Assembly: GCF_003050865.1 (NCBI RefSeq) | Contig: NZ_QAOK01000022.1 | Location: forward strand, 1 to 57,145 | Length of the DNA stretch: 57,145 nucleotides | Direction: 5' to 3' | From: Nitrosospira multiformis | GTDB taxonomy: Bacteria > Pseudomonadota > Gammaproteobacteria > Burkholderiales > Nitrosomonadaceae | Part shown: positions 2,561 to 22,317 of the stretch, in pieces | How the letters are laid out: each line of letters starts with the position of its first letter | Numbering within the stretch: the first letter of the stretch is position 1 | The notes under the pieces: generated by a model | Database searches by the model: none | What the model saw: the letters and a program-made list of their open reading frames with translations, nothing else | Told to the model about the DNA's origin: nothing | Translations under genes and position numbers: made by a program

Positions 2561-2572
2561 GCTCGCTAGCTT

Positions 2573-3198: not shown

Positions 3199-3218
3199 TG
3201 GGGTTCCAAGCCAGATCG
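3199..3218. repeat. 20-bp exact repeat shared with the SNF2 helicase gene
   Basis: TGGGGTTCCAAGCCAGATCG occurs here, just upstream of the recombinase fragment, and again at 15075-15094 inside the SNF2 helicase. On the minus strand both copies read in frame as DLAWNP: in the helicase this is part of the conserved SF2 motif, and here it continues open into the recombinase start codon. It could be an attachment-site core, a recombined helicase fragment, or chance. Confidence 0.5.
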
Positions 3219-3343
3219 AACGTCTAGAAACGATAAAGCCGCCAAGAATCAGCGGCTTAACGTATTGATGGTGGGGCGGCGACTACCAAAAAATTGTTTT
3301 AACTGTAAGAAATATAATAACAATATGTTATTTATTAATCCTT

Positions 3344-3364
3344 GTTACCCCATAAGTTACCCCT
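3344..3364. repeat. GTTACCCC / AGTTACCCCT paired repeat (left copy)
   Basis: GTTACCCC (3344-3351) is followed by AGTTACCCCT (3355-3364). The same pair in the same order and orientation lies at 29810-29817 and 29822-29831, just upstream of the complete integrase gene. Both copies sit upstream of integrase-type genes, so they may be arm-type integrase or excisionase sites. This is inference from position. Confidence 0.45.
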
Positions 3365-3475
3365 ATCTATAATCTCTGACTCCCATCATTTCCTCTGCTT
3401 TTGAATCGAGAGCATTACAGTCAGACACATCGTCGCAGGTGTCTTTGGATTCGACATCGTGAATGCGCTCCCTCG

Positions 3476-5311
3476 TCAGACCTCGATAGGTGTCGTTTTC
3501 CAAACATCCCGAGCCAACGCTATAAGCATTCCGTGCCGCTTCTCGATCGATGCGGCATCCCACGCTGGGAACGCCTCCAATTTCTCATTGATCCTGGAGA
3601 TGGATGTGTTCTGCCCGACATTCTTCAGCTCGACCAAACTGCGCGTGAGATAGTTGCTGCTGTTTCGGTACTCGGCCTGCTTCGCCGTGTAGAAGTTATT
3701 GCCGGCCACGATATTAATTGGCTTCTCCAACAGGGTCAGATTACCCAGCCGGTTCTTGTAGTCGTCATAGACGGCGGTCGGGTTTTCAGAGGCCCATTTT
3801 CCCCGCAGCTCTGCGGTTGGCGTGTCCGGCAGAATGTGCTCGATTTCCAGGCTGGTGTACGACTCCAGGCTGCCAGGTAATCTAACGCCGCTGAACGCCA
3901 TATCCACGTGCTGGGTCAGCCGTGCCAGCAGATAGCGTGTCCGGTATTGCTGCATCGTGTACAGCGAGAAGCGCTTCAGTGCATCCGACAGCTCCGGTGA
4001 TTTCGCTGCCATGTTGCTCTCAAATCGGTCCGCCACGAACGCGTTTAGCGCAGCCCGCTGCTTCAGTGGGTCCGTGATGGCTGCAATCGTCCTCAGCTCG
4101 TCGGCCCACAGCGAAAAATTCCGCTCCAGATCCTTTGTCGGCGTTTTGGTGAAGATGTAATAGAACAGGAAGCTCTCAAGCTGGGTGACGAAGTGATCGA
4201 ACAGCGGCTTCGGCAAGGCAGCAGCCGCCAGCAGCAACACGTAGTGCAAGCTGAACGCGCCACCAGCCAGCCGCTTGAGACTATCCATGGCGAGATTCGG
4301 CTTGCCATCGTTGCCGAGGCCACTCCCGAAAGCGAGGTAATGTTCGACGCTACGAATGACCTTCCGCACGAACTCAAACGGCTTGTTCGCGTAGTCGCAA
4401 AGCGGGGCATTGTCCTTATCGACAAACCAGTCGTAAATCTCGTCTTCCCGCACGACGGCGTCGCCACGGTCGTTCTTGATGACATAGTTGGCCATCAGGA
4501 AATAGCGGAGGAACCGCAGCGGCTTTTCCTTTTCCTTCTCCAGCGGCTTTGTAATCTTCTTCCACTCGTCCTTGAGCTGGGTGAACTGTGTCTGCTTAAC
4601 CTGCGTGAACAGCAGGTTCTTCAGCAAGTCCATCGGGTTGAGGCCGACGCCACGCTCGTTAATGGTCTCAAAGATCTTCAGCGCGCTGCTCACGTCCGTC
4701 GAGATCTGGATGAACACGACGTTGTTGGCCAAGTAGCCCCAATACTTCTTCAGCTTGGTCGAGTCATCGTAGTTGTCCTTCAAGTAGCGGTGAAGCGTGC
4801 CGTAAGCATTTACTAGATTTTCCAGTGATCCAAAGCTGGATATCCCTGCAGCTTGAATGCCCACACGCACGGCCAACGGATCGGTGTCCAGCTCTACCAG
4901 CTTGGCCATGACTTCGCCCGCGTTTTCGTAACGCGGCTCCAGCTTCAAACTGGCTCTCGTCTCGCCGTCGCGGTCCGTGTAGCTGGTCGAAATCAAGCCG
5001 CTTACGGTCTGCCGCTGGGGTTCACCCTGAAACACATGCTTCAGGGCGCAAAGCAGCAGGAAGAATGTGGTCAGACGCTGCTGACCATCGATCACTTCGT
5101 AGTGATTCTTCTGATCCGTCGGCGACACCAGCACGGTGCCAATAAAGTATTCCCTCGTCGAGCCTGCATCGATCTGCTCGTTGATGTCCTCCAACAGCTG
5201 TTGGACTTCTTTGTCCGTCCAGACGTACTCGCGCTGATAGTCCGGAACGATGTAGAAGCACTCCCTGAAGGCTTCCTCGATGCTATATTTGTGGTTCTCA
5301 ATACGGGCCAT
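3476..5311 (-). CDS. GmrSD-like DUF262/DUF1524 restriction protein (intact)
   Basis: This 611-aa protein has both halves of a single-chain GmrSD-type enzyme. The DUF262 half has IVPDYQREYVW at residues 21-31 and VIDGQQR at 73-79. The DUF1524 half has EIEHILP at 489-495 (His492, start of the HNH-like fold) and GNLTLL near 523. Known relatives are NTP-dependent nucleases cutting DNA with glucosylated or otherwise modified cytosine. It is the last gene of the nine-gene minus-strand operon, 33 bp after the HNH endonuclease gene. Its position suggests a backup against phages whose modified DNA escapes the methylation-based part of the system; this is inference. All signature motifs are intact, unlike the copy at 93-1659. 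Confidence 0.85.
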   Translation of the reverse strand: MARIENHKYSIEEAFRECFYIVPDYQREYVWTDKEVQQLLEDINEQIDAGSTREYFIGTVLVSPTDQKNHYEVIDGQQRLTTFFLLLCALKHVFQGEPQRQTVSGLISTSYTDRDGETRASLKLEPRYENAGEVMAKLVELDTDPLAVRVGIQAAGISSFGSLENLVNAYGTLHRYLKDNYDDSTKLKKYWGYLANNVVFIQISTDVSSALKIFETINERGVGLNPMDLLKNLLFTQVKQTQFTQLKDEWKKITKPLEKEKEKPLRFLRYFLMANYVIKNDRGDAVVREDEIYDWFVDKDNAPLCDYANKPFEFVRKVIRSVEHYLAFGSGLGNDGKPNLAMDSLKRLAGGAFSLHYVLLLAAAALPKPLFDHFVTQLESFLFYYIFTKTPTKDLERNFSLWADELRTIAAITDPLKQRAALNAFVADRFESNMAAKSPELSDALKRFSLYTMQQYRTRYLLARLTQHVDMAFSGVRLPGSLESYTSLEIEHILPDTPTAELRGKWASENPTAVYDDYKNRLGNLTLLEKPINIVAGNNFYTAKQAEYRNSSNYLTRSLVELKNVGQNTSISRINEKLEAFPAWDAASIEKRHGMLIALARDVWKTTPIEV

Positions 5312-5344
5312 GTTCTTATTCCTTCATTCTTCACATCATGGTGT

Positions 5345-6169
5345 TTAGATCAAATTGCTTGCAGCTGGCGACAATCGTTGCTGCAAGCGGGCACGGTGCA
5401 GTCCAAGGTACGGTTGGTGCAGTGCATTGACCCAACGCAGTTTCATGCCGGGCGCAATACCTAGGGGAAGCAAATTCAGTCCCACTAATGCAGGCGCAAT
5501 CACCAGCACGCCCTGTTCATCAAAGCTGATCAGAAAACGGTCAAACAATGCATCCAGATTGGCGCTAAGGAGAAAGCCGTTGAATACATCCAGCCGCTCA
5601 GCATCCGCTTCACACTCGCTCCAAGGTTTAGCGTGGCTGGCACGCAGCGCCTCGGGGATGGCAATACCGGTGACGGCGCAAGCACCACCCCAGTAATCCA
5701 GCATCGCGTCGCGGAACTTATTTTGCCCGATGCGCTGGCGCACCAGGCGCTCCACTTCGGTGCCAGCAATGCCGGCGGGCAAGGTCGACAGTTCCATCGC
5801 CACCGCCTGCTGGTAGTCGGTAGCGACCTGACTGGGCAGAGAGCGCGCGAGGCTGGCTGCACGGCGGAGCAACGCCGCCAGCGCCGCATCGCTCCGCGCT
5901 TTGAATCTGTCAGCCCCGCCGCCTGAGTGCGGAAAACTGCGTCCAAGCTCCGCACACAAGGTTGTGGAAGCCGACTGAAAATGCACATGATAAGCATCGC
6001 CTTCAACGCTCACCAAAGCGCGGGTCGAATGGCGCGCCGAAGCCAAGATGACGCCATCTGCAGCCGATGCTAGGACATATTCAAAGCCGTTATCGTTGCC
6101 GCATTTTTCAATGAGGGCGAGTTGTAGAGGGTTCTGGGCACTCATGCTGGTTTGCCAAAATCCGATCAC
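5345..6169 (-). CDS. HNH endonuclease (HNH_2-type)
   Basis: A 274-aa protein. The C-terminal half has the HNH_2 arrangement: Cys164, a SHAKPW motif with His179, Asn197 in VFNGFLL, and FDRFLISFD at about 209-217. This pattern is common in restriction-type HNH nucleases. The N-terminal 120 residues are of unknown fold and may sense or bind a partner. Translation starts at GTG (GTGA overlap with the upstream stop) or at the ATG eight codons on (6145). It lies between the PLD-like and GmrSD genes, so the operon ends with two different nucleases. Substrate unknown. Confidence 0.8.
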   Translation of the reverse strand: MIGFWQTSMSAQNPLQLALIEKCGNDNGFEYVLASAADGVILASARHSTRALVSVEGDAYHVHFQSASTTLCAELGRSFPHSGGGADRFKARSDAALAALLRRAASLARSLPSQVATDYQQAVAMELSTLPAGIAGTEVERLVRQRIGQNKFRDAMLDYWGGACAVTGIAIPEALRASHAKPWSECEADAERLDVFNGFLLSANLDALFDRFLISFDEQGVLVIAPALVGLNLLPLGIAPGMKLRWVNALHQPYLGLHRARLQQRLSPAASNLI

Positions 6170-7398
6170 GACATTACCGGCCCAGCTTTTGCTGCCACTT
6201 CTTCCTTCAACAGCGCGCCATCCATTACAGATTGCGGAATCTCCTTCATAACGCGCTCGCCAAAATCCTTGTTCTTGAGCGTTTCGTAGGTCACATCCTT
6301 GTAGAACTTGTGGATCTTCATCCCGAATACCAATTCCTCAGCCGTTGGAAACGACTTGGCAAGCTCTTCTCTGACATAAACTGCGGCTGACTCTTCGGTG
6401 GCAAGAAACAGGCCGCGAAAACGCGATGGTGGATTTGCCATAACTGCCCGCGACAAGTCGGGGATAATCGCGTCGATGACTTTGTTCAAAGCCTCCTGCA
6501 AATCCTTCTTCAGGGCTTCCTTACAGTCATCCAAATCCTTCTCGATTTTCGTCAGCTCATTCTCGAAACTCTGCCGCTTCGACTTCAGCATCACGCGGCC
6601 AGCCTGCCCCACAGGCACCAAATAAGCTTGACGCAGCTCTTCTAGCTTCTCGGTGACCTCTTGAAGCGCTTTGGGTTTTTCGACTTTATCCAACACTTTG
6701 AGTGATGCGGTCACGCGATCTTTCAGCGCTTTATCTTGAGTGGCGATCAGCGGCAGGGTTTTGGGCAACTGAATGCGGCGACTCTGGATATTGAACCCCT
6801 CGAATGTCAGCTCAACAAATTGAATGAGCGCGGCATAAACTTGCGTTTGACGCGCCAAGTCAAATTGCTGTGGGGGTGCAATTTCAAGCGCACGCTTGAC
6901 CTTGCATAAAGTGGCCTCTTCAACCGGCTCACTGCCGACCACCGGATATTCCAGTGCAGGCGAGAAATTTTCACCTTTGATCACGGGAGGAAGCTCTACA
7001 CGCAACACCATGACTTGTGCTGAAGTTAGCGTGATGGCATTAAAGGCCTCACTGTCAGCAGTGAGGTCCGCCTCCACCAGGCTTGGAGATGTGGCAAAAC
7101 TCCAGCCAGCGTCATCGCAAATCAACGCACCAATACGCAAGCCTGCATGTTGGCGCAGCATGACACCCGCCTGACTTAGCATCTCAACCGCAGCATGTTC
7201 GCCATAACCGAGGCGTGTTACCCGCGCCGATACGTCCAGCACTACCTGCACCGCGCCTTGCCCGAGCCGTTGGTGGGCATGTTGCAGCGCTTTGGCCACA
7301 GGTACGCAGATGCCGGGCGCAGCTAGGATGACGTGCTTTTTCGACGCCTCAATTTCCTGACATATTCGCTCGTTGGTTAGCGTGGCAAATAGGGGCAT
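6166..7398 (-). CDS. Defence-operon protein with degenerate PLD-like N-terminus
   Basis: A 410-aa protein I cannot assign to a named family. Residues 1-130 follow the pattern of a phospholipase-D-like nuclease half (VILAAPGICVPVAKAL, VQVVLDVSARVTRLGYG, LRIGALICDDAGWSF). The catalytic HxK is missing, so if it has this fold it is likely inactive or works as a binding module. The middle (about 220-310) is rich in K/E/L and likely helical or coiled coil. DISARM operons contain a PLD protein (DrmC), which makes a comparison tempting, but similarity is only at pattern level. It overlaps the HNH gene by 4 bp and follows the RNA ligase gene by 15 bp, so it is co-transcribed with both. Confidence 0.55.
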   Translation of the reverse strand: MPLFATLTNERICQEIEASKKHVILAAPGICVPVAKALQHAHQRLGQGAVQVVLDVSARVTRLGYGEHAAVEMLSQAGVMLRQHAGLRIGALICDDAGWSFATSPSLVEADLTADSEAFNAITLTSAQVMVLRVELPPVIKGENFSPALEYPVVGSEPVEEATLCKVKRALEIAPPQQFDLARQTQVYAALIQFVELTFEGFNIQSRRIQLPKTLPLIATQDKALKDRVTASLKVLDKVEKPKALQEVTEKLEELRQAYLVPVGQAGRVMLKSKRQSFENELTKIEKDLDDCKEALKKDLQEALNKVIDAIIPDLSRAVMANPPSRFRGLFLATEESAAVYVREELAKSFPTAEELVFGMKIHKFYKDVTYETLKNKDFGERVMKEIPQSVMDGALLKEEVAAKAGPVMS

Positions 7399-7413
7399 AG
7401 CGTGATCCTCGAA

Positions 7414-8115
7414 TTATTCATATTGAACCCTGTTCCACTCAATCGCTCGCTTACGCCAATGCGTGCCGATGGCTTGCGCGAAGTCGGGCCGGATTAGCTT
7501 GGCGCGCGTTTCGCACCAATCCGCCGATTGGCGGCGAATTACCAAGCCTTCAAGCGCACCATTGCGGTAACGGCTGTGTGTGGTGGCGATAAGCTGTTTG
7601 AGCGCGGAAACATTGGTCTTCCCATGCAGCACCTGCGGCACCGTCACCAAACCCGCTGCACTTGCCAGCACATTGCGTCTTGGCGTACTCCAGAAGCGGC
7701 GCGTTGCGCGGTCATACACATCAAACAAGAGAAACAAATCCGGCAGGGCAGCGTAGTCCAGCGAATGGCGCGCTGCACACCACTCGCCAAAGAGGATCAG
7801 GTTCGGTTTGAGCACGACACGCATTGCCTCGCTGTGTTGCGCTAACCAGGCTGGCAAGCGGGCGAATTGACCGGAGTGAGGTTCAGCCAAATATTGCCCT
7901 CGATTCTGCGCGCGCAAACTGCCATCTGGAGCGAGAGACAGGCCTAGATTTGCACCGTCCAGCTTCTCCTCCACCATCACATTGCCCGTGAGCAGTGCCG
8001 CCACCTCATTGGGTGAAAGCACCTTGTCATCGCGTGGGGCGCCTTCGCCCAGCCAAGCAATGTGCGGTGTGTGGGGGAAACGGAAGAAATCGGTCAAGCC
8101 ACGGTCCTCATTCAA
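7414..8115 (-). CDS. RNA-ligase-family nucleotidyltransferase
   Basis: A 233-aa protein with the covalent nucleotidyltransferase motifs of the RNA ligase family: motif I EEKLDGANLG with Lys51 as the predicted AMP acceptor, motif III-like LFGEW (108-112) and VYD, motif IV EGLVIR (189-194), and motif V AKLIRPDF (205-212). It is short and has no visible oligonucleotide-binding domain after motif V, so it is a minimal ligase core. Such enzymes seal nicks in RNA or repair cleaved tRNA. It is unusual in a DISARM-like operon. It overlaps the PIN nuclease gene by 4 bp, suggesting a cut-and-seal pair, or a repair function against phage-induced RNA breaks. The family call is firm; the role is inference. 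Confidence 0.85.
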   Translation of the reverse strand: MNEDRGLTDFFRFPHTPHIAWLGEGAPRDDKVLSPNEVAALLTGNVMVEEKLDGANLGLSLAPDGSLRAQNRGQYLAEPHSGQFARLPAWLAQHSEAMRVVLKPNLILFGEWCAARHSLDYAALPDLFLLFDVYDRATRRFWSTPRRNVLASAAGLVTVPQVLHGKTNVSALKQLIATTHSRYRNGALEGLVIRRQSADWCETRAKLIRPDFAQAIGTHWRKRAIEWNRVQYE

Positions 8116-8639
8116 CGAGTCTGCTTTTCGGAATGTTTTTGCCGTGACCAGTCTTCAATGATTGGCTCTAACAGCACCTGGCTCGCCAGCAGATCAGCTT
8201 CCCAATCATGCCAATCGGTGTCCCCCGCAAAGGCGATACAGCCCTCACCATGCTGCCTATGTGAATCCAGGGCTGCGGCCACCAGCTTCTTGTCCGCCTC
8301 GTCGTGGATCACTGCCAGCAATGGCGGCTGCAATACTCCGTGGCGATGCTCGTCATAGGCGACATCGACGTTATCTACGGCTCCGGTGCTCCACTTGTGT
8401 ATCACTACTTGAATGCCAAAGTCATTAAAGCCAAGCTTTTTGTAGTACTCGTCGTAAATGCCGCCGGCTAGATCCAACACTATCCGGGATGGACTGGACT
8501 GAAATGCGTCAAGCCACTGCCATACCCGCATCCGCTGTATTGGATCAGCCGGGGTTGCATCAATATCCTTCGGGTGCGTTGGGTCTGCAGCACTGGCAGC
8601 AATCAGCACATTGGTATCGACCACATAGCGATCCCTCAT
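8112..8639 (-). CDS. PIN-domain nuclease-like protein
   Basis: A 175-aa protein opening with the PIN signature YVVDTNVLIAAS (Asp8). Acidic clusters follow at HDEADKKLVAAAL and at AGDTDWHDWE, in the order expected for the PIN metal-binding carboxylates. PIN enzymes are mostly endoribonucleases, and many act as toxins. No antitoxin gene is adjacent. Instead it overlaps the AAA ATPase gene upstream and the RNA ligase gene downstream by 4 bp each, so it is probably controlled by the ATPase. The substrate cannot be told from sequence. Confidence 0.75.
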   Translation of the reverse strand: MRDRYVVDTNVLIAASAADPTHPKDIDATPADPIQRMRVWQWLDAFQSSPSRIVLDLAGGIYDEYYKKLGFNDFGIQVVIHKWSTGAVDNVDVAYDEHRHGVLQPPLLAVIHDEADKKLVAAALDSHRQHGEGCIAFAGDTDWHDWEADLLASQVLLEPIIEDWSRQKHSEKQTR

Positions 8640-9961
8640 GCCTTGTTCTCCTGCTGGCGCGTAAACACAAGACGCGCCTGTTCACGAGTCTCGCCCAGCG
8701 CATCGCCAAAGAAACCCGCTGGCCAGTTTTTCACGCGACCGAAGTCGTCCAGTTCCAACGGCCGCATGGTCGCTGTTTTCCCGTCGCGCTCGACGAAATA
8801 CATAGCGGTTTCATTGGGCTTTATGTCTTGTTTTGCGATTAGTGTTTGCATGCGCCGGAACAGGTGTTCGGAATGAGTCTCGACGATGAACTGAACTTTT
8901 CGCTCCTTGCTCACCTGCGCCAGCAACTCGGCCAACTTGCTTTGAGCCAGTGGGTGCAAATGGCTTTCTGGCTCTTCGACGATGACGATATGCCCTGGCT
9001 GGGCAAACAAGGCCGCCACGATAACGGGGATAACCTGCGAAACGCCCACACCGACATCCTTGAGGTTGCTGGCCTGGCCGTCGTTTTCAATCATCAATTC
9101 ATAGCGTGCAGAGCTGCCTAGGGCGCGGATGGAAAGCGCATCCGCCAGATTCATCGCCTTCAACCAATGAATCGTTTGCTCGAATAGTTGCGCTTCGGCA
9201 GGCAGCGCTCGTTTGCGCTTGAGGGCAGACTGCCGCGCTACACCACTGGCGATCAAGGCATCCACCGCTTTGGCACCATCGTCGCCGATGTGTGCGGGCA
9301 TGCGGCCAGACCACACATAGTCGCGTTGCGCCATGCGGCGCACGGGGCCCAGGTAAATGATGCGGCCCAGTTCATCCAGCAAGGTTGGGCCAATCGGCTT
9401 GATCAACTCCGCCTGCGCACCCAGTTTGTTAAGCGTGGCCGCCGAAAAGGCAAATGAACGCTGCGGGCGAAAATCTGCACTTTGGCCTAAAGGCTTAGCC
9501 AGCGTGGCCAAGCTCAGGCGGTAAATGCCGGCCTTGCGCCGCTGTACGGTAAAGCCCTGCCCGTCTTTCCCCAAACGTAGAAAGGCCAGTTCTGCGCTAC
9601 CGATCGGTCCTCTATTGTAGCGTGCTGAAAAAAGCGTTGAATGTTCTGCCTGGCCGTGCTCACTCCAGCGAAATTCGATACCCACCTGAGTCGCCGAGGT
9701 GCTTTCACTGGTGAGGCCATGGCGGCAGAGCAAGTCCTTGAACTGTCCCAACGTCACCGAATCATCGGTATCGGGATTACCCAGATTGAGATCCAGATTG
9801 GGGTCGTCACCTTTCACCGTTTGCCGGATCAGCAACAGACTCTGGATCAGACTGGATTTGCCGGAGGAGTTGGTGCCAAGCAGCAAGGTAATGGGCGCCA
9901 AGCAAATAGGCCCGGTGCTGCGCCAGATCTTGAAGTTCTCCAGTTTCAAGTGCGTCAGCAC
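8636..9961 (-). CDS. AAA ATPase (OLD/SMC-like, AAA_21/DUF3696 type)
   Basis: A protein of about 441 aa if translation begins at the GTG overlapping the upstream stop (TAGTG at 9961), which gives the family-typical start VLTHLKLENFK; another GTG lies 11 codons upstream at 9994. Walker A is GTNSSGKSS (about residues 29-37), Walker B is IVIVEEPESHLHP (about 325), and the H-loop-like VETHSEHL follows. This matches single-gene ABC-type ATPases common in defence islands, which bind DNA ends or activate a nuclease partner. It lacks a Toprim domain, so it is not a complete OLD nuclease. The directly following PIN gene is the likely effector. Confidence 0.85.
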   Translation of the reverse strand: MLTHLKLENFKIWRSTGPICLAPITLLLGTNSSGKSSLIQSLLLIRQTVKGDDPNLDLNLGNPDTDDSVTLGQFKDLLCRHGLTSESTSATQVGIEFRWSEHGQAEHSTLFSARYNRGPIGSAELAFLRLGKDGQGFTVQRRKAGIYRLSLATLAKPLGQSADFRPQRSFAFSAATLNKLGAQAELIKPIGPTLLDELGRIIYLGPVRRMAQRDYVWSGRMPAHIGDDGAKAVDALIASGVARQSALKRKRALPAEAQLFEQTIHWLKAMNLADALSIRALGSSARYELMIENDGQASNLKDVGVGVSQVIPVIVAALFAQPGHIVIVEEPESHLHPLAQSKLAELLAQVSKERKVQFIVETHSEHLFRRMQTLIAKQDIKPNETAMYFVERDGKTATMRPLELDDFGRVKNWPAGFFGDALGETREQARLVFTRQQENKA

Positions 9962-12900
9962 TAGCCTAACCCCCCTCGCTCCAGTTTGTCCCACGCCTCC
10001 AGCACCATTCGTTGGGTACGGTATTCGCCAAAGTCTCGTACTTCTTTGTTCTTGAGCACGCGGAAGGTCTCACTGGGGTAATCCTCACCCATTACGTCGG
10101 CGGGATCGAGGATGTAGCGCAGCTCGTCGCGTGTGATGCGGTAGAGTTTGGCGTAGTAGGCATCGAGTTCGGCGCGCAGTTGGGCACGACGATTGGGGTT
10201 GAAGGTGAAGGGTTCGCCGAAGTAGCCGAGGTCTTGTGCCCAGGGTTTGAGATCGTGGGCAGTGTAGATGAGCTCCAGTACGCGTGGGACGATGAAGACA
10301 AGGTCAGCTTCAGTGTAGCGGTTGGGGCAAAGGAAAGGTAACTGCTTTAAATAGCCGTAGGTCAGATGAATGTAGCCAATCTTTTGTCGGGCTATATAGT
10401 CGACAACAAGAGAATTGGCATTCGCTACGAGACATGCAATACGGGGTACATCGTTTAGAGCAGGGAAAATCAATGGCAATGTATGCCCGACTCCGGACAG
10501 TGGGATGATCGTGGAGATAAAAGTCCGGACAGTGATGGCGGTTGTAATGTCCTTGTAGCCCAAAAGCCATTTTCTGTGCCATCGACCTTGAAGACGCGAG
10601 ATTACCTCGTTTTCATCTACCCAATAAAAGGGCTGTACCTGGTAATTAGGATCTTGGTATTTTTCCAAGGGGGTATTAGGAAGTACGCGATTGCCACGAT
10701 CGCCATCTCGACTTTCGTAAGAGCCAACACGGTGGTTAAACTGACCAATCATCTTGGCTTCGTACAAAGGCAGCATCCCTTCATTTCCGGAGTCAATAAA
10801 TAAATGGCTGTCACCGGACATATGCATCATGGCCATGAATGAAATGTACCAAGGATTACCACTCGGCTTTCCTTCCTCGATCAACACCGGAGCGGCGCCG
10901 TAAAGTTTCTTGGTCAACGACGCATCGCGCTCGCTGCGGAACACTGGGCAGGTGAGCGTGTTGGGGTTGATGAGGCGAAATTCGGCGGGGGTGAGGGTAA
11001 AGCGGCGTCTTGGATCGGTCAGTTGGTTGACTTGCGTCGCAAAGAAGACGAACTCTGCCTGCTCTGCCTGTCCCAACGTGAGGAGGCAGAACTTATAGCT
11101 ACGATGGACGGATGGGAAAACAGCGTCACGGTTCTCGATGTCATACAGGCTGACCAATCGGCCGGTCTGGGTTTGGTGGGCAAAATAAGCCTTGGTGCTG
11201 TCATCCGTCGCTATGCCGGTCGGCACGATAAACCCGGCCCGGCCCGTTGTATGGGTGATCTGGCTGATGGTTTCGGCAAATAGTGCATACGTATTCACAT
11301 CGCCCACGCCGGTGAGTGGGTAACGCCCTCCATCGTCGCCCTTCACATGAGCAAACACACTGGCGGCTTCCGCCGTGCGGCGGGCGGTGATGAATTCGGC
11401 ATACACGCGCTGTTCCGCTTCGCGTTCGTGGGGCGAGTGTTCTAGTTGAGGAAACAAATGTTTAGCCAGCATCCCCTCAGAAAGCCACTGGATACGCTGG
11501 CTGCGTTCCGCCTTGTTCTTGGCTTGCGCCACATCGCGGTGCCGGGTGGCGAAGAATTCTTCTTCCTGCAGTTTGATGCGCTCCCAGGGTGGGTTGCCCA
11601 GCACGCAGTCAAAGCCGCCGCTGGCAAACACCTGCGGAAAGGCCAAGGGCCAGTGCAATACGCGGGCTTCAACGCAGGCCATCTGCGCGGCGGCTAATGC
11701 GCCTTGTTGCTGCGTTGGTAAAGCATCACCCAGCAAGGTGAGGTAGAGCGTATTGCTGGTAGGGATATTTGCTTCATCCCCTTCGAGTTTGGGTAGCAGA
11801 TAGGTACCCACCAGTAAATCGGCTGCATGCGCCAGTCGGCTGGTTTTGGCTTGTTGCAAGAACGCCCGGTAAGCGGCTTCCTTGGCAGCGATCTCCCGGG
11901 TGGTGTTTTCCGGTAGGGCTTCGAGCGCTTGCAATTGGCTCAGGCCACTGCCGGTGGCGCTGGCAACATCCAGTTGGCCGAAGGCGCGGGCGTTGCGTTT
12001 CTTTTCCACGTCTTTGAGGGCGGTAGCGTTGGTTTTGGTGAGCTGCTTGCACGCTTCCTTGTCGTCGCCAGAGAGCGGTTTGAATGCGTCCTTGGCAATG
12101 CCCAGTTCCAGAGCTTTCAAATCGGTCAGCCCCAGCAGCGCATCGCCCACTTGCAGGTGGTGATCGAGAAAGCCCAGCGGACGGCCTTCTTCAAAGCCTT
12201 CCAGCCACAGCGCGGTGCGAGCCAGTTTGATGGCCATGGGGTTGCGGTCCACCCCGAATATGCACTTGGCCACCACTTCACGTAGGGCGTGGCGGAAGTC
12301 TTGTTCGGTTTGTTCGCCATCGGTGGCACGCAGTTGCGCGAGCTTTTCGGCCAAGCGGCGAGCGGCCGCCAGCAGGAAGTGGCCGCTGCCGCAAGCCGGG
12401 TCGATGACACGGATGGCGAGCAGCGCTTCAATGGGAGATTCGGTCTGGGCGGCAAGGCGTTGCTCGATCACCGGGTCGAGCGCGGATTTAATGAGTTCCT
12501 GCACCAGCGAATCCGGCGTGTAGTAGCTGCCGCTGAGCTTGCGGGCATTGCCGGCGGTGCTGCCCGCGCTGGTGAGGCCGACAAAGCCGAACTGGCGTGC
12601 AGGCAGGTCGATCTCCGGCACCAACTCCAGCAGGCTTTCGTAGACGCTGCCGAGTTCTTCCGGCCCCATGTTGCGGTAGTCCACCGGGGCGAGCACGCCT
12701 CCGTTTTTACCAACAGAATGGCTGGCCCAGCGCAGGTTCAGCATGGCGGCAAGCAAGTGCGCGTTATCCAGACTGGCTGCATCCAGTGCCGGGCATTGGT
12801 TCAGGGCGAACAAGCCTCCAAGGGCGGGTAAGGCGAGTTGCGGTTCGCCTTCGCTCAAGCCCTTGAAAACGATGCACAGGGCTTGCCAGTGGTCATCAAA

Positions 12901-13941: not shown

Positions 13942-13965
13942 GTTTTTATCCCTAGCCGCTGCCGA

Positions 13966-16758
13966 TTACAGTGCATCGGGCAGCAACACATACACGCCTA
14001 TCACGTCCACAGGCAGGCAGGCGGTGACACTATATTGGCCGACATCGCGCGCCGCCTCCCGCACGCGCTGGTGGTCGGCCAGCAGGGTTTGGGCACGTTG
14101 CTTAGCCAGCGTTTGCAACTGTTGGGGATGTGCGGCGATAAAGTCCAGCGCGGCGCGAATCTCGCGTTGCATAACCTCTGCGGGCAGATTGCCGGTGGGC
14201 GTGCATTCCAGCAGGCGCGCCACAGCATCGCCCTCGAACCACTGCGGATTGCTGCGACCTGCCACGGCCAGCGCCACGGTTTCTTCGGCCATCATCTGGA
14301 ATGGTTCACGACGGCGTACATAGCCCAACTGGTGGCGCAGGCGCAGCAGGTAAACGGAGGTGACCACCTCCACCGCATCCGTCAGAGTGGCGGCGCAGCG
14401 TGCAGCAATGCCTGTCTCACCGGCCAAACTGGTCTCCAGCAGGTGTTCGGCCAGCGCACTCACCAGAGGGTGGCTGCGGTGCAGTTCATTGAAGTTCAGC
14501 AGCAGGGGTTTGACGATGCCTTCATCGGCCAGGCGCATGCGCAGGGCTTCTGGCAGATGCTGTGGCAGAAAGCGAAACTGCTGTTGTTTGCGCGCTGGTT
14601 CCAGCGGCGCGTTAAGGCGGGCGCAGGCGCTGTGCACAAAGCGCTGCACATCGGCCTGGGTGCCGAGCGCTTCTTGTTGCTTTTGCCACTCCGGCAGCAC
14701 TTCATCCGGGCGGATACGGCGCTGGGCAAATACGGTGCGGTTGGCCTTGGCTTTTTCCAGCGCGTCCTGCCATTGGGCTTGGAGTGGCTGCAGTTCTACA
14801 TTGGCTGCGGCGAACATGTCTGGGGTGTAGGGCGCAGACACGTCTGATCGGCGCATCAAGGCGGCTTTGACCAAGGCCTGATTGATGCGAGCTTCGTCTT
14901 CCGGCATGGGTACCAGCACACCCAGCTCTTTCTGGATGGTTTCACCTTTGCGCAGAATCACGTTCAGCACAAAACCATCGACGGGGTTGTCCTGCCCCCA
15001 GAGCATGGTGCAGCGTACCTCTCCAGCCTGCTGGCCAAAGCGGTCGACGCGGCCTTCACGCTGCTCGTGACGGGTGGGGTTCCAAGCCAGATCGTAGTGA
15101 ACGACTGCGGTAAACAGGTGCTGCAGGTTGATGCCCTCGGAAAGGCAGTCGGTCGCCACCAGAATGCGCGGTTCGCCTTCTTCCATCGCTTCGACACGCT
15201 CGCGCCGCTCTTCCGGGGTGTATTCCCCGGTCACGGACTCGACCGTGGTCTCGGGAAAGGCGTTGCGCAGGTGTTCGGCGACGTAGTGGGCGGTGGCGAT
15301 GTAACGGCAAAACACCACGGTATGGTAGTCGTCTTTCACCAGCGCCTCGACGTGCCGGATCAGCGCGGCCAACTTCGGGTCACCCGCCTTGCCGGAGAGG
15401 CGTTTGGCTTCTTGGATTAAGCCCTGCAGTCGGCTGGCTTCTTCCAGTTGCGCGGGGGGCTCCAGGTCGCTGCTGTAGAGGTTATCGGCCTCTCCATCAT
15501 GCAGGCGTTCGTCCATCAGCAGGTCGTCTGTTTCAAGACTGCCTTCCAATCGGGTGGAAAGCGCTTTGGCAGCAGCGGCGGGTGACGAGGCGACGCAACG
15601 CAATAGTGCGAGCGTGGCATACCAGATCAGGCCGCCACGGCCTTCGCCCTGTTGCTCGATGCGTTCTTCAACATTCAAGGCCAGCTCGCGACAATAGTCC
15701 TGAACCGAATCAAAAAACGCGCCCCAATCCCCGCTAAGCTGGTAGGTGACTTCCGTTTTCATGCGACGCGGAAAGCCACGACCATCGCCGGTTTCGGCCT
15801 GCCATTCGGTAATGTCCTTGCGGCGGCGCTGAACAAAATGCCGTGCCAGTTCCTGACGCAAGGGATCGCCCGCCTTCATGCGGTTTTGCAAGGCCCTGAA
15901 GCGCGGGTTGAGCAAAGACAGCAGGTTGTAAAACGCGGTTTCATCACCGGAATGCGGCGTGGCGGTGAGCAAGATCAGGTGACGGTCTTCATCCTTGACC
16001 AGGCGTTGCAACAACTCAAAACGCAATTGCTTGCCCGTGCCACTGCTGGCGCAGGTATGTGCTTCGTCAACAATCACGCACTCCGGCGCAATCGCCAGAA
16101 AGTGTTCGCGATGGCGCTCGCTCTTGATGTAATCCAGGCTCACTACCACGACAGGATAGTGATCGAACAGACTGACGCCATGGGGAAGATCGCGTTCGAG
16201 GCGCGCAGCAGATGCCGATGTCAGCGCGACGGCTTGCAGGTTAAAGCGGGTTTCCAGCTCGCTTTGCCATTGCTCCACCAAATGCGGGGGGCAGAGTACG
16301 GCCAAGCGGATGATCTCACCACGGTCCATCAGTTCACGGGCAATCAGCCCGGCCTCAATGGTTTTGCCGATGCCGACGTCATCGGCAATCAACAGGCGCA
16401 CGGTCGTCAGGCGCAGCGCCATCAATAACGGCACCAACTGATAGCCACGTGGCTCTACCGCGATATTGCCAAACGAACGAAATGGCCCACCCCCAGCGCG
16501 CAGCTTGAGGCGCAGAGCATCGCGAAGCAGCAAGGCGGCAGCATGGTTTCCCGCATGCTTGGGTTCTGGCCATGGGAAGGTAGCAGGCGTTACCGGTTGC
16601 AGCTCGAGCTCTGGGACGAGGAAGATGGTGTCGTCATCCGCACCGCCGAGTGGGCGCAGGCGCAGCCAGTCACGGCAGGATTCACTTTGCACCACCCATT
16701 CACGCCCACGGGCACGAACGAGATTGCCTGGCATGAAGTCGTGTTCAAGTGTGGTCAT
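13966..16758 (-). CDS. SNF2-family helicase (DrmD-like)
   Basis: A 930-aa SF2 ATPase. The N-terminal lobe has ADDVGIGKT (Walker A, about 125-133), DEAH box IVDEAHT (229-235) and TATPHSGD. The second lobe has ATDCLSEGINLQ and REGRVDRFGQ (about 560-590). The pattern matches HepA/RapA-like SNF2 translocases and DrmD of class 1 DISARM. SNF2 enzymes usually translocate along duplex DNA rather than unwind it. Its ATG overlaps the stop of the DUF1998 helicase gene by 4 bp. The segment at 15075-15094, encoding DLAWNP, is the 20-bp repeat also found at 3199-3218. Confidence 0.88.
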   Translation of the reverse strand: MTTLEHDFMPGNLVRARGREWVVQSESCRDWLRLRPLGGADDDTIFLVPELELQPVTPATFPWPEPKHAGNHAAALLLRDALRLKLRAGGGPFRSFGNIAVEPRGYQLVPLLMALRLTTVRLLIADDVGIGKTIEAGLIARELMDRGEIIRLAVLCPPHLVEQWQSELETRFNLQAVALTSASAARLERDLPHGVSLFDHYPVVVVSLDYIKSERHREHFLAIAPECVIVDEAHTCASSGTGKQLRFELLQRLVKDEDRHLILLTATPHSGDETAFYNLLSLLNPRFRALQNRMKAGDPLRQELARHFVQRRRKDITEWQAETGDGRGFPRRMKTEVTYQLSGDWGAFFDSVQDYCRELALNVEERIEQQGEGRGGLIWYATLALLRCVASSPAAAAKALSTRLEGSLETDDLLMDERLHDGEADNLYSSDLEPPAQLEEASRLQGLIQEAKRLSGKAGDPKLAALIRHVEALVKDDYHTVVFCRYIATAHYVAEHLRNAFPETTVESVTGEYTPEERRERVEAMEEGEPRILVATDCLSEGINLQHLFTAVVHYDLAWNPTRHEQREGRVDRFGQQAGEVRCTMLWGQDNPVDGFVLNVILRKGETIQKELGVLVPMPEDEARINQALVKAALMRRSDVSAPYTPDMFAAANVELQPLQAQWQDALEKAKANRTVFAQRRIRPDEVLPEWQKQQEALGTQADVQRFVHSACARLNAPLEPARKQQQFRFLPQHLPEALRMRLADEGIVKPLLLNFNELHRSHPLVSALAEHLLETSLAGETGIAARCAATLTDAVEVVTSVYLLRLRHQLGYVRRREPFQMMAEETVALAVAGRSNPQWFEGDAVARLLECTPTGNLPAEVMQREIRAALDFIAAHPQQLQTLAKQRAQTLLADHQRVREAARDVGQYSVTACLPVDVIGVYVLLPDAL

Positions 16759-19700
16759 TGTGTTTCCTCGTATTTGCCGAACACATCAGAGTGAGCAGCA
16801 AACTGCCCATGCCAGAGCGATGGATCGGAGAAGTTCAGTATTTGCCAGCCTTTGTCTGTCAGCAAGGCTGCGATGTTTGTATCAATCGCTTCAAGAAACA
16901 CCAGGACGCGGGCTGCCTTGTATTGGCCTGCGGCTATCGCAGCCCCCTGGTTGACGGGCACCTGTATGGCATCTGGGCGGCGCAAGCCTGCGGCATCCAA
17001 GGCTTGCAACCACTGCTTGAGATGATCATCGGCCGGCGCGTGTGCTGGCGCAGGTGGTGGATCTCGCCGGGGTTTGACTTCGGCATTGGCCAGCGCTACC
17101 AGCACCTTGAGCGCATCGGCATTCCGGCGGTTGATATTTTCGTGATCGGGCTGGTTGAAGTAAGACAGCAGGCATTGGTAACAGCCTGCTTCACAGATGT
17201 GGTTGCCGAGCGCATTGGTTTGCTCCAGCGCAGGCAAGTCTTCAAGTTTCCACTGACCTTGCGGTGCATGGTAATGCAGCAGTTTGAGCGCGTTACTGGC
17301 GACCTGCCCAAGGCTAGCCGGGTCGCCGGCAATGCGGGTGAGTACTCCCGCGCCTCCCTCTGCAGCCTCGTAGAACATCAAGGCGAGACGCTCGTCAGCT
17401 TTGGGCAGCGGTTCGGCCACGAGTTCCGACTCTTCAATCTGGAAGGTCATCTCAATGCCGCGTTTGAGCGCTGCCTGCAAGGTTGCCATGGCCTCGGTGG
17501 ACAGGGCATGCACGGGCGCGAGAATCAGGAGGTTGCGGTGGTCCTCGACGAAGGGAACAATGCGCTGGTTGGGTACTTTGTCGAGCAGCGCTTCGTCCTT
17601 GCCGTCCTCTTCATTGTCGCCCGGTTCGTCCTGCTTGCTCCAGGTTCCGGTGATGGGGTTGATGTAAAAACCCAGCTGCTCCTTGTCCTTGCGCCTTCGC
17701 CAGCCACGGTTGAGGCGCCACAAGCGGGCCGCAGGCGCATAGGTCAGCTCGGCCAGCGTTTCTTCGTCGTGCCTAACCTCAGCTTTACGCTGCTGGATGA
17801 CACCATCCGGCCCCGGCAGGAAACGGTAGGTGGTTTGCAGCTCAAAACCCTGGCGCTGACGATCTTCATCATTGATGGAGATTCGTTCGACAGCGACGGT
17901 TTCCACCGTTTCGATCCGATACAACTCGCGCACCCAGTCGTGGTCGGTCAACAGGGCGTCGCAGTTTTCACAGCGATTGACCAAGGGTTGCGCGCCGTTG
18001 ATGTCGCCCAAATGACCGTAACCGCATTGGCTGCAAATTAGTGAGGAGATGGTGGCCAGTTGACTGTTGCCAGAGATGTGATCGGCCGAACCCACATTGA
18101 GTTTGGCACGCACCACACGGTACATGCGCCCTTGGTGATAAATCAGACTGCGCGGGCCGAACTCGGACAAGGCCAAAAAGCGCGGGCGAGTGACCATGCT
18201 GCCCTCGTCATCCTTGCCGTTTGGCGTTGTGCCTCCCCGCGCGGGAATCCAAGCCATCAGGGGCAGGCGCGGGAAGTTGTAGCCCGGCAGGAAGCCCTGA
18301 CTCGCCAGATAACGGTAGGTGTAGAAATCCGAGTTCCGGGTGTTGCCATTCTTGAGCAATACGGCGTATTGCCGGGCTGCATCGCCGTACCGGCGTTGGG
18401 CGTTCTGGCGCTCATTGTGTGACGCAGTATGGCTTTTGACGAGCTGGTCGGCCATGTTCATTTGTGTGTGGGTGGCATCGAACAAGACGCGCCAGCGCTC
18501 CAGTGCACCGGAGAATGCCTGAGGCGCACGCTCAATCACCTTTTGTACATAATCCGCTGAAAACCAGTCGCTGCCTGCGAGCTCCTGCTGCAGCTGGGCC
18601 ATGACGCGGGCAGCACTAGCCTGGGCACGCTGTGTGGCTGCCGGATCATTCAGTGCATCGTGATAGGACTTGATCAGCGGCTTGCCTGGCTGATCAAGGT
18701 CAAGCATGGGCGCTATGCTGTCATCAAGGGCAATGTGGGCGTTTGCCAGCCAGACAGCTTGCAAATGGCTTTCGACCAGATCGCGATTGGCCAGATCCAG
18801 CGTCGGCGCACGGACGACGCCATGCACCATTTCATTGGCGTGATGGAAAAACCACTGGTCATGCGGGCTCAACGAGGCGCAATAGGTAATTACCAGAGCT
18901 TGTTGACCAGATCGCCCGGCGCGACCACTGCGCTGGGCGTAATTGGCAGGTGTCGGCGGGACATTGCGGAGGTACACGGTATTCAGTGCAGAAATGTCGA
19001 CACCTAGCTCCATTGTTGGCGAGCAGAACATGACCGGCAGACGCTCCAGCGGGGCTTCGTGCGCTGGGTTGTCGGCCCAGTCCTTGCGGTCCTTGTCGGT
19101 GTAGCGGAAACGTTGTTCCAACAATTGACGGCGTCCAGCATCCACCTGGGCCGTATGTTCCTGCGCCTCAAAATCAAAAAGCGGATGGCTCTTCTGGCGC
19201 AATAAATCGGCGATGTTCAGATAGAGCGCACAGAAGAATTGATTAGCGCCCGTGTCTCCAGCCTGGAGCGACTCTTTTGGCAAACACCAATCCAGCGCGG
19301 CTGCATTCAGGCGCCAACCTATCAGCTGTTGATCAAGCGAATGCTTCTGGACATAGCCGTAGAGCGCAGCCGCTTGCAACAGGGCCCCCACCAGCTCGAC
19401 CCACTCGGGGTCTTTCCAGCTTGTGACTTGACTGGCGAAGTCAGTTTTTTTCCAGAAGGCGGCGGTTTTGATGTCGCGCAGCAGGCGCGAGCGAGGCCCA
19501 CCCGTCACCAGATCTGTTCTTGGTTTGCCCCGGTATTCCGGCCGTTTACTGAGAATCAGATATTTGGCCGTTTCCAGCAGTTCATCAGGCGCAAAGGCCC
19601 ACCGCTCGTTGAGGTAAGCGAAGGCACTGGTTCGGGCCTTGTCCTGCTCGACCGGATCGAGATAGCGTGTCTCCAGGCACAACCCGCGACGCATCGTGTT

Positions 19701-22040
19701 GAAAACAAGCCGACACAAGCTTGCTCGATGCGCTGCATTCAATTTCCTCAAGGTGCCATTTTTTCCGAAGGCGGCAGCGTCGGCACAAAACTCATGCAGA
19801 CTGCGGTAGTTGATCGCCAGCAACCCCAGTTGATCCAAGTTCGGGTTATTGAAGCGCCAGCCGCGCCGCAAATCACGTAGCAAGCGGTAGCCAATGATGT
19901 AGCGCAGCGTGCGCTGAGCTTCTTGCCGAGCCAAACCCATGAGCTTGGGTGTGCGCAGGTATTCGACCAGCGTGGCTTCGTCCAGCCGATCAAAACCGAG
20001 TGCCTTGAACACGGCATCTGCCAACTGTTCTTCAATTAGCACATCGTTGCTGCTCTGCAAAGCGCCTATAAGACCTGCGCGCAAGGTCAGCAAGAAGACG
20101 AAATCATTGAAATGGCCGGCTTGTAGCGCTGCGTCCTGACGGTTGTCGGTAAAGCCAAGCAATTTGCGCGGATCAGGCTGGCCGCTTGCCGGTTCTTTAT
20201 CGTTGAAGAGTTGGCGCAGTGCGCTAAGCGTCAGAATCGTTGTGGCCGAGGATCGCCCTTCGCCTGAAAGACTTGCAAGGCGGTTGATGTCTTTGCCATG
20301 CGCTTCATGAAGCTGTCTGCAATTCAGACAGAAACGAAACTTTCCCGGGATGTACCAGAATGACTCGCCATGCCCCTCGTTTCCTTGTACGTCAACGCTA
20401 ACGCTATATGGCACGGCCTTTTTGTAGTTTTGTTTGATCTTGGGTGGGTCGCGGCTCAAATCCAGCCAAGTCTCTGGCAGATCTTCAATATCGCCTCTGT
20501 AGGACAGATTGGAGCCCACCGGACACAGGAATCCGTAAAAAACGTCTTCGTTATCGTTTGGCGTAATGTCATCAATTTCGCGCGGAGTGTAACTCGCGGG
20601 CTCCCTCTTTGATTGCCAAACCGGAAGGTACTCTTGGCCGCAATCCCGGCAAAAGTGCACGGGATAGAGTTGGACGCCTTCGTCCTGCCGACCTGGCGCA
20701 AAACGCTGCGCATCCAGGGTAATATGACGAACACCTTGCGCTTCAAGCGTGGCAAGCACCTTGCCAGGACCGCTGATAAATTGGTGAAGCTTGAACGCAA
20801 ATGGCGGCCTGCCTTGGGGAGTTTTGACTTCATGTGCAGCCACCAGAAAACGCTGCAGACCGTTGCGCGCCACATCGATCGCACAACCCGCATCGTTCGC
20901 CAGTTTTTCACTGGCTGCCTGGATGGTCATCGGCTTTGCCCGACGCGGCGGCTCGTTGTCAGGCAGTTCAATGCCGAGATTCAATTCGACCCAGACCGAC
21001 AGGGGATCAATCCGAAACGAATCAAAGTTTGCCCAGGAAAATTCAGAGCGTGAGACCGCCGCCGCCAAATGGATTTGAATTGCTGCGACATCTTTTAGCG
21101 GGTCAGTTACGCGCTCAAGCGTTTCGCCGATGATGTCCTGCTCGTTTAACCGCGTGCCAAAAAGCTTGCTTGCAACCTCTGCAACGGTCTTGTTTCGATC
21201 CGCCAAGCACCCGGTGCTGGACATGGTGGCTGATGTGCCAATACAGACCAATTCATCCGCCAGCAGTCGCTCGCGCAAACGACGCACTAGCAAAGCGACA
21301 TCCGCACCTTGACGTCCACGATAGGTATGAAGCTCATCCAGGATCAGAAACCTCAGCCCTTGGCAGTGATCCACCACGCGTCGATCCACCTCGTCGAAGC
21401 GAGTAAGGATCAGCTCCAGCATCATGAAATTGGTCAACAGGATGTCAGGAGGGTTGTTGGCAATTGCGTAGCGTTCTACCTTTGACTCCTGTCCAGTGTA
21501 ACGGGCCACCGTAAAGGGTTGCTGCCCATCCGGATAGCCATGTAGAAATTTATCGAGCTCTTCGAGCTGACTATTCGCCAAGGCATTCATCGGATAGATG
21601 ACGATGGCCCGAGTGCGTGCTGCTTTTTCTTGATCCTTGGCTTTCAAAATCCGATCAATGACAGGGATGAAAAAAGACAGTGACTTTCCAGAGCCCGTGC
21701 CCGTGGTGACGACATAGCTCTGCTTTCCCTGCCCCTTGGCCAATGCCTGCAACTGATGAGCATAGAGTTGTAGCGGCTGAGGATGTCCCTCTGCTTTGCC
21801 GACCTGAAAGAGTTCGGCACAGGCACGATGCAGTACACCCTCTGCGGCCAGCTCTTGCACTGTACCTTTTCGCTGATAGTTCGGATTGATTTGAACGAGG
21901 GGTTCTGGCCAATAACGCCCATCGGCATACTGCCGCTCCACCTCATCCCTAATGTCTGGCGCAGCGATCCGGGAAAAGCTTCGTGAAAACGAGCTGTATT
22001 CGCTGATGAGCTGGTCGCGAAAGCCAAATACGTTATTCAT
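16755..22040 (-). CDS. Giant DUF1998 DEAD/DEAH helicase (DrmA/DrmB-like in one chain)
   Basis: About 1761 aa. From the chosen start, the first helicase lobe has TGTGSGKS (113-120), IYPMNALANSQ and LILDELHTYRG (about 232). The second lobe has FCSPTMELGVDIS and QRSGRAGRSG (about 1030). Cysteine pairs CRDCG, CLNC, CSQCG and CENC are likely zinc sites. The C-terminal DUF1998 module has CEAGCYQCLLSY at about 1618. In DISARM the helicase (DrmA) and DUF1998 protein (DrmB) are usually separate; here both are one polypeptide, also as in DruE-type helicases. The start ATG at 22040 is chosen because AAGGGAAG lies 10 bases upstream; an ATG-less extension to 22100 is open but overlaps the decayed upstream gene. 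It is the first gene of the nine-gene operon. Confidence 0.85.
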   Translation of the reverse strand: MNNVFGFRDQLISEYSSFSRSFSRIAAPDIRDEVERQYADGRYWPEPLVQINPNYQRKGTVQELAAEGVLHRACAELFQVGKAEGHPQPLQLYAHQLQALAKGQGKQSYVVTTGTGSGKSLSFFIPVIDRILKAKDQEKAARTRAIVIYPMNALANSQLEELDKFLHGYPDGQQPFTVARYTGQESKVERYAIANNPPDILLTNFMMLELILTRFDEVDRRVVDHCQGLRFLILDELHTYRGRQGADVALLVRRLRERLLADELVCIGTSATMSSTGCLADRNKTVAEVASKLFGTRLNEQDIIGETLERVTDPLKDVAAIQIHLAAAVSRSEFSWANFDSFRIDPLSVWVELNLGIELPDNEPPRRAKPMTIQAASEKLANDAGCAIDVARNGLQRFLVAAHEVKTPQGRPPFAFKLHQFISGPGKVLATLEAQGVRHITLDAQRFAPGRQDEGVQLYPVHFCRDCGQEYLPVWQSKREPASYTPREIDDITPNDNEDVFYGFLCPVGSNLSYRGDIEDLPETWLDLSRDPPKIKQNYKKAVPYSVSVDVQGNEGHGESFWYIPGKFRFCLNCRQLHEAHGKDINRLASLSGEGRSSATTILTLSALRQLFNDKEPASGQPDPRKLLGFTDNRQDAALQAGHFNDFVFLLTLRAGLIGALQSSNDVLIEEQLADAVFKALGFDRLDEATLVEYLRTPKLMGLARQEAQRTLRYIIGYRLLRDLRRGWRFNNPNLDQLGLLAINYRSLHEFCADAAAFGKNGTLRKLNAAHRASLCRLVFNTMRRGLCLETRYLDPVEQDKARTSAFAYLNERWAFAPDELLETAKYLILSKRPEYRGKPRTDLVTGGPRSRLLRDIKTAAFWKKTDFASQVTSWKDPEWVELVGALLQAAALYGYVQKHSLDQQLIGWRLNAAALDWCLPKESLQAGDTGANQFFCALYLNIADLLRQKSHPLFDFEAQEHTAQVDAGRRQLLEQRFRYTDKDRKDWADNPAHEAPLERLPVMFCSPTMELGVDISALNTVYLRNVPPTPANYAQRSGRAGRSGQQALVITYCASLSPHDQWFFHHANEMVHGVVRAPTLDLANRDLVESHLQAVWLANAHIALDDSIAPMLDLDQPGKPLIKSYHDALNDPAATQRAQASAARVMAQLQQELAGSDWFSADYVQKVIERAPQAFSGALERWRVLFDATHTQMNMADQLVKSHTASHNERQNAQRRYGDAARQYAVLLKNGNTRNSDFYTYRYLASQGFLPGYNFPRLPLMAWIPARGGTTPNGKDDEGSMVTRPRFLALSEFGPRSLIYHQGRMYRVVRAKLNVGSADHISGNSQLATISSLICSQCGYGHLGDINGAQPLVNRCENCDALLTDHDWVRELYRIETVETVAVERISINDEDRQRQGFELQTTYRFLPGPDGVIQQRKAEVRHDEETLAELTYAPAARLWRLNRGWRRRKDKEQLGFYINPITGTWSKQDEPGDNEEDGKDEALLDKVPNQRIVPFVEDHRNLLILAPVHALSTEAMATLQAALKRGIEMTFQIEESELVAEPLPKADERLALMFYEAAEGGAGVLTRIAGDPASLGQVASNALKLLHYHAPQGQWKLEDLPALEQTNALGNHICEAGCYQCLLSYFNQPDHENINRRNADALKVLVALANAEVKPRRDPPPAPAHAPADDHLKQWLQALDAAGLRRPDAIQVPVNQGAAIAAGQYKAARVLVFLEAIDTNIAALLTDKGWQILNFSDPSLWHGQFAAHSDVFGKYEETQ

Positions 22041-22056
22041 TGATTCTGTTCTTCCC

Positions 22057-22317
22057 TTAGGGAGCGTAGTCGGGTGCAAGTACGATATTCTTGACGCCAT
22101 ACAGCGCTAAGTGGTCTTTCAGCCAAAACCAATATTCATGGCCTTACAAGCTCTCATCAGGCGAAGCATCTAAACTCCAGCGCTGCAGCATATAACCAGC
22201 GACTGCAGCGCGAAAGCGCATTCATATCGAGCCATCTTGCCGTCTTGCATTCCGTAGTCCATCCGGATGATCTCCGAACGGCTCAAGCGCGGGTAGAACG
22301 GCAGGTACGCGGATTAG
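22057..22317 (-). pseudogene. Decayed gene immediately upstream of the DUF1998 helicase
   Basis: Two protein-like stretches lie in different minus-strand frames. The first (about 22317-22175) reads YLPFYPRLSRSEIIRMDYG and onward, with no start codon. The second (about 22141-22057) reads HEYWFWLKDHLALYGVKNIV and ends APDYAP-stop, 16 bases before the helicase ATG. Together they look like the N- or mid-part and C-terminus of one protein broken by deletions or frameshifts. Position suggests it was once the operon's first gene. I do not recognise the family. Confidence 0.4.

Follow-up and report, generated by a model that had tools for sequence, protein, structure and literature searches.

The window, a stretch of 57,145 nucleotides from Nitrosospira multiformis, lies on contig C22 (NZ_QAOK01000022.1, positions 1-57,145) of a 3.29 Mb genome. 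Between positions 3476 and 22100 it carries nine minus-strand open reading frames in one array (ORF list), which from the first gene (g1) to the ninth (g9) are spaced by -4, 24, -34, -4, -4, 15, -4 and 33 bp. The one-strand operon reported in the initial annotation is thus confirmed, with spacings from -34 to 33 bp. Gene g1 (16755-22100, minus strand, 1781 amino acids) encodes a YprA-family DEAD helicase fused to MZB/DUF1998, with a C-terminal Vsr-like stretch from which the catalytic pattern is missing; that the helicase and DUF1998 parts sit in a single chain had been noticed before and was borne out. It is followed on the same strand by g2 (13966-16758, 930 amino acids), a BrxHII/DrmD/DpdE-like SNF2 helicase, and g3 (9961-13941, 1326 amino acids), a PglX/DrmMI-like N6-adenine methylase of the Eco57I/PglX type. 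The first gene of what is below called the slot cassette is g4 (8636-9994, minus strand, 452 amino acids), an ABC-type AAA ATPase with DUF3696; then come g5 (8112-8639, minus strand, 175 amino acids), a PIN nuclease, and g6 (7414-8115, minus strand, 233 amino acids), an ATP-dependent RNA ligase. To g7 (6166-7398, minus strand, 410 amino acids), which is optional, no family was assigned; it perhaps has a degenerate PLD-like N-terminus followed by long helices, a weak likeness. The array ends with g8 (5345-6169, minus strand, 274 amino acids), an HNH_2 endonuclease and the recurrent last gene of its ARMADA clade, and g9 (3476-5311, minus strand, 611 amino acids), a GmrSD-type protein with DUF262 and a DUF1524-like C-terminus that is a recurrent but optional neighbour of the HNH gene. 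The unusual tail of RNA ligase, PIN protein, ATPase and HNH (and GmrSD) described earlier is therefore indeed present beside a DISARM-related core.

Next to the operon (positions 385-3172) lie a second GmrSD_N (DUF262) gene of 424 amino acids, a serine recombinase gene (1885-2472) and a short ORF of 199 amino acids. The G+C content is 0.424 at positions 1-3400 as compared to 0.572 in the operon. At 28514-30307 a tyrosine-integrase-like ORF (28514-29782) adjoins the tmRNA gene (29946-30307), so that the defence region may be a genomic island at ssrA; the opposite boundary was not located, and the terminal 22 bases of the tmRNA gene have no other exact copy in the genome.

Profile matches identified DEAD helicase and MZB/DUF1998 in the one chain of g1, g2 as SNF2-type and g3 as Eco57I/PglX-type. 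According to the accessible text of the preprint of Bell et al. (2025; PMC12458937), ARMADA type I consists of a YprA-like helicase/DUF1998 chain, a BrxHII-like helicase and a PglX-like methylase, in that order, protection was found for an ARMADA type II cluster, DISARM is a branch that consistently splits helicase and DUF1998, and the ARMADA helicases resemble those of Druantia most; their C-terminal Vsr nuclease, given as typical, is predicted there to be active. Since the trio in the window matches ARMADA type I in kinds and order, the DISARM label falls. The core taken in the initial annotation to be DISARM-like is DISARM-related, but its helicase-helicase-methylase arrangement is that of ARMADA type I and had already been described (PMC12458937). 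We assign it, as judged by gene kinds and order, to an HNH-bearing clade of ARMADA type I-like cores, "like" because without the Vsr catalytic pattern g1 does not make it a standard member.

With PADLOC the best match of g1 was DruE (302 bits; DrmA 53 bits), which agrees with the remark on Druantia in the preprint (PMC12458937), and g2 reached 690 bits with one DpdE model and 282 bits with DrmD. The NCBIfam models scored below their curated cut-offs: DrmD with g2 at 322 bits (cut-off 610), DpdE at 207 (500) and DpdJ at 92 (800). Class 1 DISARM was ruled out because the counterparts of DrmA (helicase) and DrmB (DUF1998) are fused in one chain and DrmD is under its cut-off, and Dpd because DpdE and DpdJ are under theirs, the 690 bits of the PADLOC DpdE model notwithstanding. 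Several ARMADA methylases (L003, L005-L008) have longer open frames of up to 1709 amino acids; in L005-L007 the match breaks near residue 1117, which suggests an inserted stretch.

The loss of the Vsr pattern from the C-terminal stretch of g1 is shared by a clade of relatives; the pattern is kept in L031, L045, L050, L051, L208, L210, L211, L212, L214-L217, L219 and L221. Both groups were delimited partly by eye, the regular expression having missed patterns with Y before IDG and the tail of L210, which were set by eye. In the BrxHII tree 32 rows carry labels for both features; among these the HNH gene was present in 24 of the 25 without the Vsr pattern as against one of the 7 with it (G175). 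The row with neither is L030, in which the methylase is followed by IS21 genes. No HNH label was given to G223 (which retains Vsr and has an HNH match several genes off), L122 (where the locus ends), L208, L217, L221 and G286 (less than 4 kb of downstream DNA) and, by oversight, L216 (8.6 kb downstream and no HNH match); L210 went without a Vsr label, though it keeps the pattern and has no HNH match. On the whole tree of 47 rows Vsr changes once and HNH three times, which makes this a clade-level pattern, essentially one event, and not an independent test; as independent proof of a link between Vsr loss and HNH it was rejected, since a paired test comes down to one pair. In this clade the HNH enzyme has probably replaced Vsr as the DNA cutter.

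The interval between methylase and HNH gene is a slot for exchangeable defence cassettes. It is empty in L032, L038, L041, L046, L048, L222 and L227, holds the AAA-PIN-ligase module in the window and in L033, L052, L067, L085, L091, L097 and L114, and in L035, L037, L043, L225 and L228 is occupied by proteins of about 650 amino acids from a family with weak similarity to LmuB/DUF2326 (annotated as SMC on one plasmid), which shares the slot with the module in L065 and L078. The slot of L057 contains a SMEK-type protein, a short prokaryotic Argonaute (pAgo) and the module, with close homologues in L062; that of L088 the module followed by AbiU/AIPR; that of L224 a dGTPase and GmrSD_N; and that of L226 a UvrD-like helicase. 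In L110 (1453-7444) an AAA_13 protein (PDC-S46) precedes a ligase that is in place without a PIN protein, and two more genes follow before the HNH gene; the ligase may pair with other RNA cutters. Acinetobacter soli has ATPase, PIN and HNH without ligase. The core tree, whose sample is enriched for ligase loci, shows at least six changes in the presence of the cassette. Because the ARMADA loci were gathered through a plasmid search, in genome samples and by way of the ligase scan, the slot counts do not give frequencies in populations. Profiles were run on ten of the slot proteins, and the rest were assigned by similarity to these ten or left without assignment.

Proteins of the LmuB-like family, divergent and about 490-664 amino acids long, are encoded directly after the methylase in L035, L037, L043, L044, L051, L065, L078, L210, L223, L225 and L228; the family may be a standard partner of ARMADA I. 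The SMEK-type protein and the short pAgo lie between methylase and module at 5214-8113 in L057 and at 4991-8139 in L062. On an Acidithiobacillus caldus plasmid (L022, 13337-13971) an annotated Phd/VapC toxin-antitoxin pair, with another PIN protein, is found between BrxHII helicase and methylase.

Two A. caldus plasmids, one of them L022, carry between methylase and HNH gene a stretch matching the last 40 residues of the ligase. Relics of the methylase C-terminus directly precede the module in L021/L029, L064, L084 and L094, in G100 the methylase is left only as pieces, and short methylase tails near contig or locus ends in L053, L073 and G200 are less sure; L023 has a YprA-like fragment before the ATPase, and several loci near core or module are broken. 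In the relic search, "HNH" rows overlapping the ligase were ignored, as they stem from over-long HNH ORFs. Such remnants indicate that loss of the cassette and loss of the core both occur and that the module can outlive the core. Relatives of g7 were found in two other loci of the set (L058 and L122), and its structure model (pLDDT 61.8) gave no structural match at E <0.001, apart from the weak PLD-like hint. In phmmer searches a GmrSD-like gene directly followed the HNH gene in six other ARMADA loci (L033, L037, L043, L062, L068 as a fragment, and L072).

The initial annotation had proposed that the operon with its tail is one supersystem, an idea that was to fall if the genes occurred together only here or if the tail genes were scattered in relatives. 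G228 (L033 with L231) has eight of the nine kinds in the same order, g7 being absent, and seven kinds are seen in L058, a locus that starts inside g2, has g7 in two pieces and shows no GmrSD gene. The kinds therefore do recur together and in order, yet parts of the tail are also scattered and exchangeable. As a single obligate supersystem the tail did not survive: the HNH gene tracks one clade of ARMADA I, and AAA-PIN-ligase is a separate module, found also by itself or in the vicinity of other restriction systems. Nine genes forming one obligate system were likewise rejected, because g7 and GmrSD are mostly absent and the module is separable.

The distribution of the module was followed from both ends. 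Genome contigs were scanned with five ligases, and the set taken, the best 80 of at least 550 relatives, leans to close relatives. Within these best 80 of at least 550, a PIN gene lies directly upstream of the ligase in 71 of the 75 loci with at least 500 bp upstream (the others are L063, L087, L110 and L119, the last with a 39-residue PIN relic), and ATPase and PIN are both present in 62 of the 72 with at least 2 kb; PIN without ATPase was seen in six (L099, L100, L118, L128, L129 and L132). Core-type genes are in reach in 17 of the 59 loci with at least 4 kb upstream, and an HNH gene follows in 17 of 19 ligase loci with core-type genes as compared to 2 of 38 without, again among the best 80 of at least 550; the two core-type loci lacking it are L066, whose "core" is a different YprA, and L122, whose core lies downstream of the ligase. 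The search from the PIN side matched 13 of 399 genomes of the order in 14 places, window included; the ATPase adjoins in each of the 13 places that could be tested, the ligase in 11 of them, L233 and L241 lacking it. The PIN genes of L033 and L052 were seen in this search. Away from a complete ARMADA core the module occurs on plasmids of Aeromonas, Azotobacter, Tistrella and Rhodococcus. Six neighbourhoods of modules outside ARMADA I, examined by PADLOC, contained class 1 DISARM proteins (L069), a type I methylase (L075), a weak type III restriction match (L123), a Mokosh-like helicase (L103), a DruE-like YprA with a methylase (L066) and a DrmD/BrxHII-like helicase (L109).

The PIN protein g5 has a VapC-like fold with conserved acidic catalytic residues; a PDB sequence search with the PIN profile returned just five chance-level matches, and Foldseek alone nothing at E <0.001. 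By E-value, apart from PADLOC's own thresholds and system rule, g4 matches HEC-03B (3.4e-82) and its neighbour g5, weakly, HEC-03A (5.7e-7). The ligase g6, of which the host genome has a single copy, matches PF09414 (2.4e-30) with its nucleotidyltransferase motifs intact; in the set drawn from the best 80 of at least 550 relatives motif I is present in 80 of 81 loci and FGEW in 81 of 81. The match to PF09414 stops at residue 207, and the longer RNA ligases matched in the PDB are covered in their nucleotidyltransferase part only. Being short, g6 may need a partner protein for sealing.

Observed here are the kinds of gene present, their catalytic motifs, the PIN fold, the conserved neighbourhood, the exchange of modules and the loss of the Vsr motif; that the operon acts in defence, which RNA is cut, what triggers the cutting and in which direction the ligase works are inferred. 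We see about an even chance that this is an ARMADA type I-like anti-phage operon whose slot cassette is an RNA-cutting PIN nuclease gated by the ATPase, the cuts being resealed by the partner ligase. The methylase g3 would mark self DNA, the two helicases would engage unmarked invading DNA, and the likely DNA cutter would be the HNH enzyme rather than the degenerate Vsr tail of the YprA helicase. The ATPase g4 would sense infection or a blocked restriction complex and unleash the PIN nuclease, which would cut RNA, most likely tRNA; the ligase would reseal the cuts, suppress leaky toxicity and let the cell recover. RNA cutting would thus form a second layer, the damage of which the ligase limits or reverses. 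PIN enzymes of the VapC type leave 3'-OH and 5'-phosphate ends, and ATP-dependent RNA ligases (Rnl2-like) join just such ends with ATP and without further processing; end-healing enzymes would therefore not be required for the pair to cut and reseal.

It is possible, at a probability that we put well below one half, that the slot is a mere landing place or defence hotspot and that the module, although co-transcribed with ARMADA, is independent of it and functionally uncoupled. For most copies of the module no ARMADA genes lie within reach (core-type genes were seen in those 17 of the 59 loci that have 4 kb or more upstream, from the best 80 of at least 550), the module persists after core loss, and the slot also houses complete unrelated systems, e.g., short pAgo or dGTPase with GmrSD. 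On the other side, the recurrence of the module near several restriction-type systems and at the same position of the ARMADA operon, with overlapping reading frames in the window, hints at joint use without proving it. We think it unlikely that the "ligase" is a nucleotidyltransferase which caps or adenylylates RNA or protein, as toxin or antitoxin, and seals no breaks. Its 233 amino acids, with no C-terminal domain seen in the PF09414 and PDB matches, would suit such an enzyme, but the ligase-type motifs are invariant or nearly so, and among the relatives in viral contigs, where RNA repair is the usual role of such ligases, no PIN gene was nearby in 45 of 48 loci.

Just as improbable, in our estimate, is a PIN-ligase pair that serves host RNA maturation or stress repair, is not immune in purpose and came to defence loci secondarily. 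The six pairs without ATPase lie beside ordinary chromosomal genes, which a role in stress or RNA maintenance fits too, and the gene after the ligase in L101 reads, by eye, like an ATP synthase subunit; the patchy distribution (13 of 399 genomes of the order), carriage on plasmids and repeated placement near restriction-type genes argue against it. Ligases without PIN (L063 and L087), PIN without ligase (2 of 13 testable places, and Acinetobacter soli), the small size of the ligase and the broken state of several loci also count against the ATPase-gated cut-and-reseal cassette that we propose. A wider form of this proposal is offered tentatively, and we would not expect it to hold in full: the ABC-gated PIN nuclease and its own ATP-dependent RNA ligase would be a self-contained reversible module, in which resealing wins in healthy cells and cutting wins in cells that are infected, energy-poor or restriction-blocked, and which would move among ARMADA, DISARM and classical restriction-modification loci, backing up DNA restriction there as a second line.

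Should the ligase undo the damage done by the nuclease of its own operon, this would be immunity with a built-in, chemically matched antidote, which repairs the target instead of binding the toxin, and in an ARMADA operon the cassette would provide an unusual two-layer immunity. The slot naturally frames defence cassettes (short pAgo, AbiU-like, SMC/LmuB-like, GmrSD and PIN-ligase); reading it across ARMADA I loci offers a directed route to new systems and to which of them cooperate.

Among known systems, PrrC/EcoprrI combines an RNA-cutting anticodon nuclease and an ABC ATPase with a restriction system; the repair ligase is that of phage T4, and the ends need healing first. The cassette likewise ties an RNA cutter and an ABC ATPase to a restriction system, but its nuclease is a PIN protein and its ligase is encoded in the host operon. 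An ABC ATPase adjoining a PIN nuclease is also common to the PADLOC candidate HEC-03, named in the accessible text of PMC13356809, and to the OLD-ABC + PIN pairs described as backup effectors in BREX loci (PMC12839542); the module adds an RNA ligase, a word that occurs 0 times in the accessible text of PMC12839542. A literature search for DUF3696 together with "RNA ligase" returned nothing, and reviews of RNA repair and of ABC ATPases in conflict may mention PIN-ligase pairs. Class 1 DISARM has related kinds of helicase and methylase, but separate genes for helicase and DUF1998 (PMC12458937), which are fused here, and g2 is under the NCBIfam cut-off for DrmD. The main text of the ARMADA preprint, as accessible, never uses the terms "ligase", "GmrSD" or "DUF3696"; "HNH" appears a single time, within the title of a reference, and "PIN" likewise a single time, at the start of a word (PMC12458937). 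With ARMADA type I the operon shares the YprA-like helicase-DUF1998 chain, then the BrxHII-like helicase and then the PglX-like methylase; it differs in lacking the Vsr pattern, in having an HNH gene at the end and in carrying a cassette before it.
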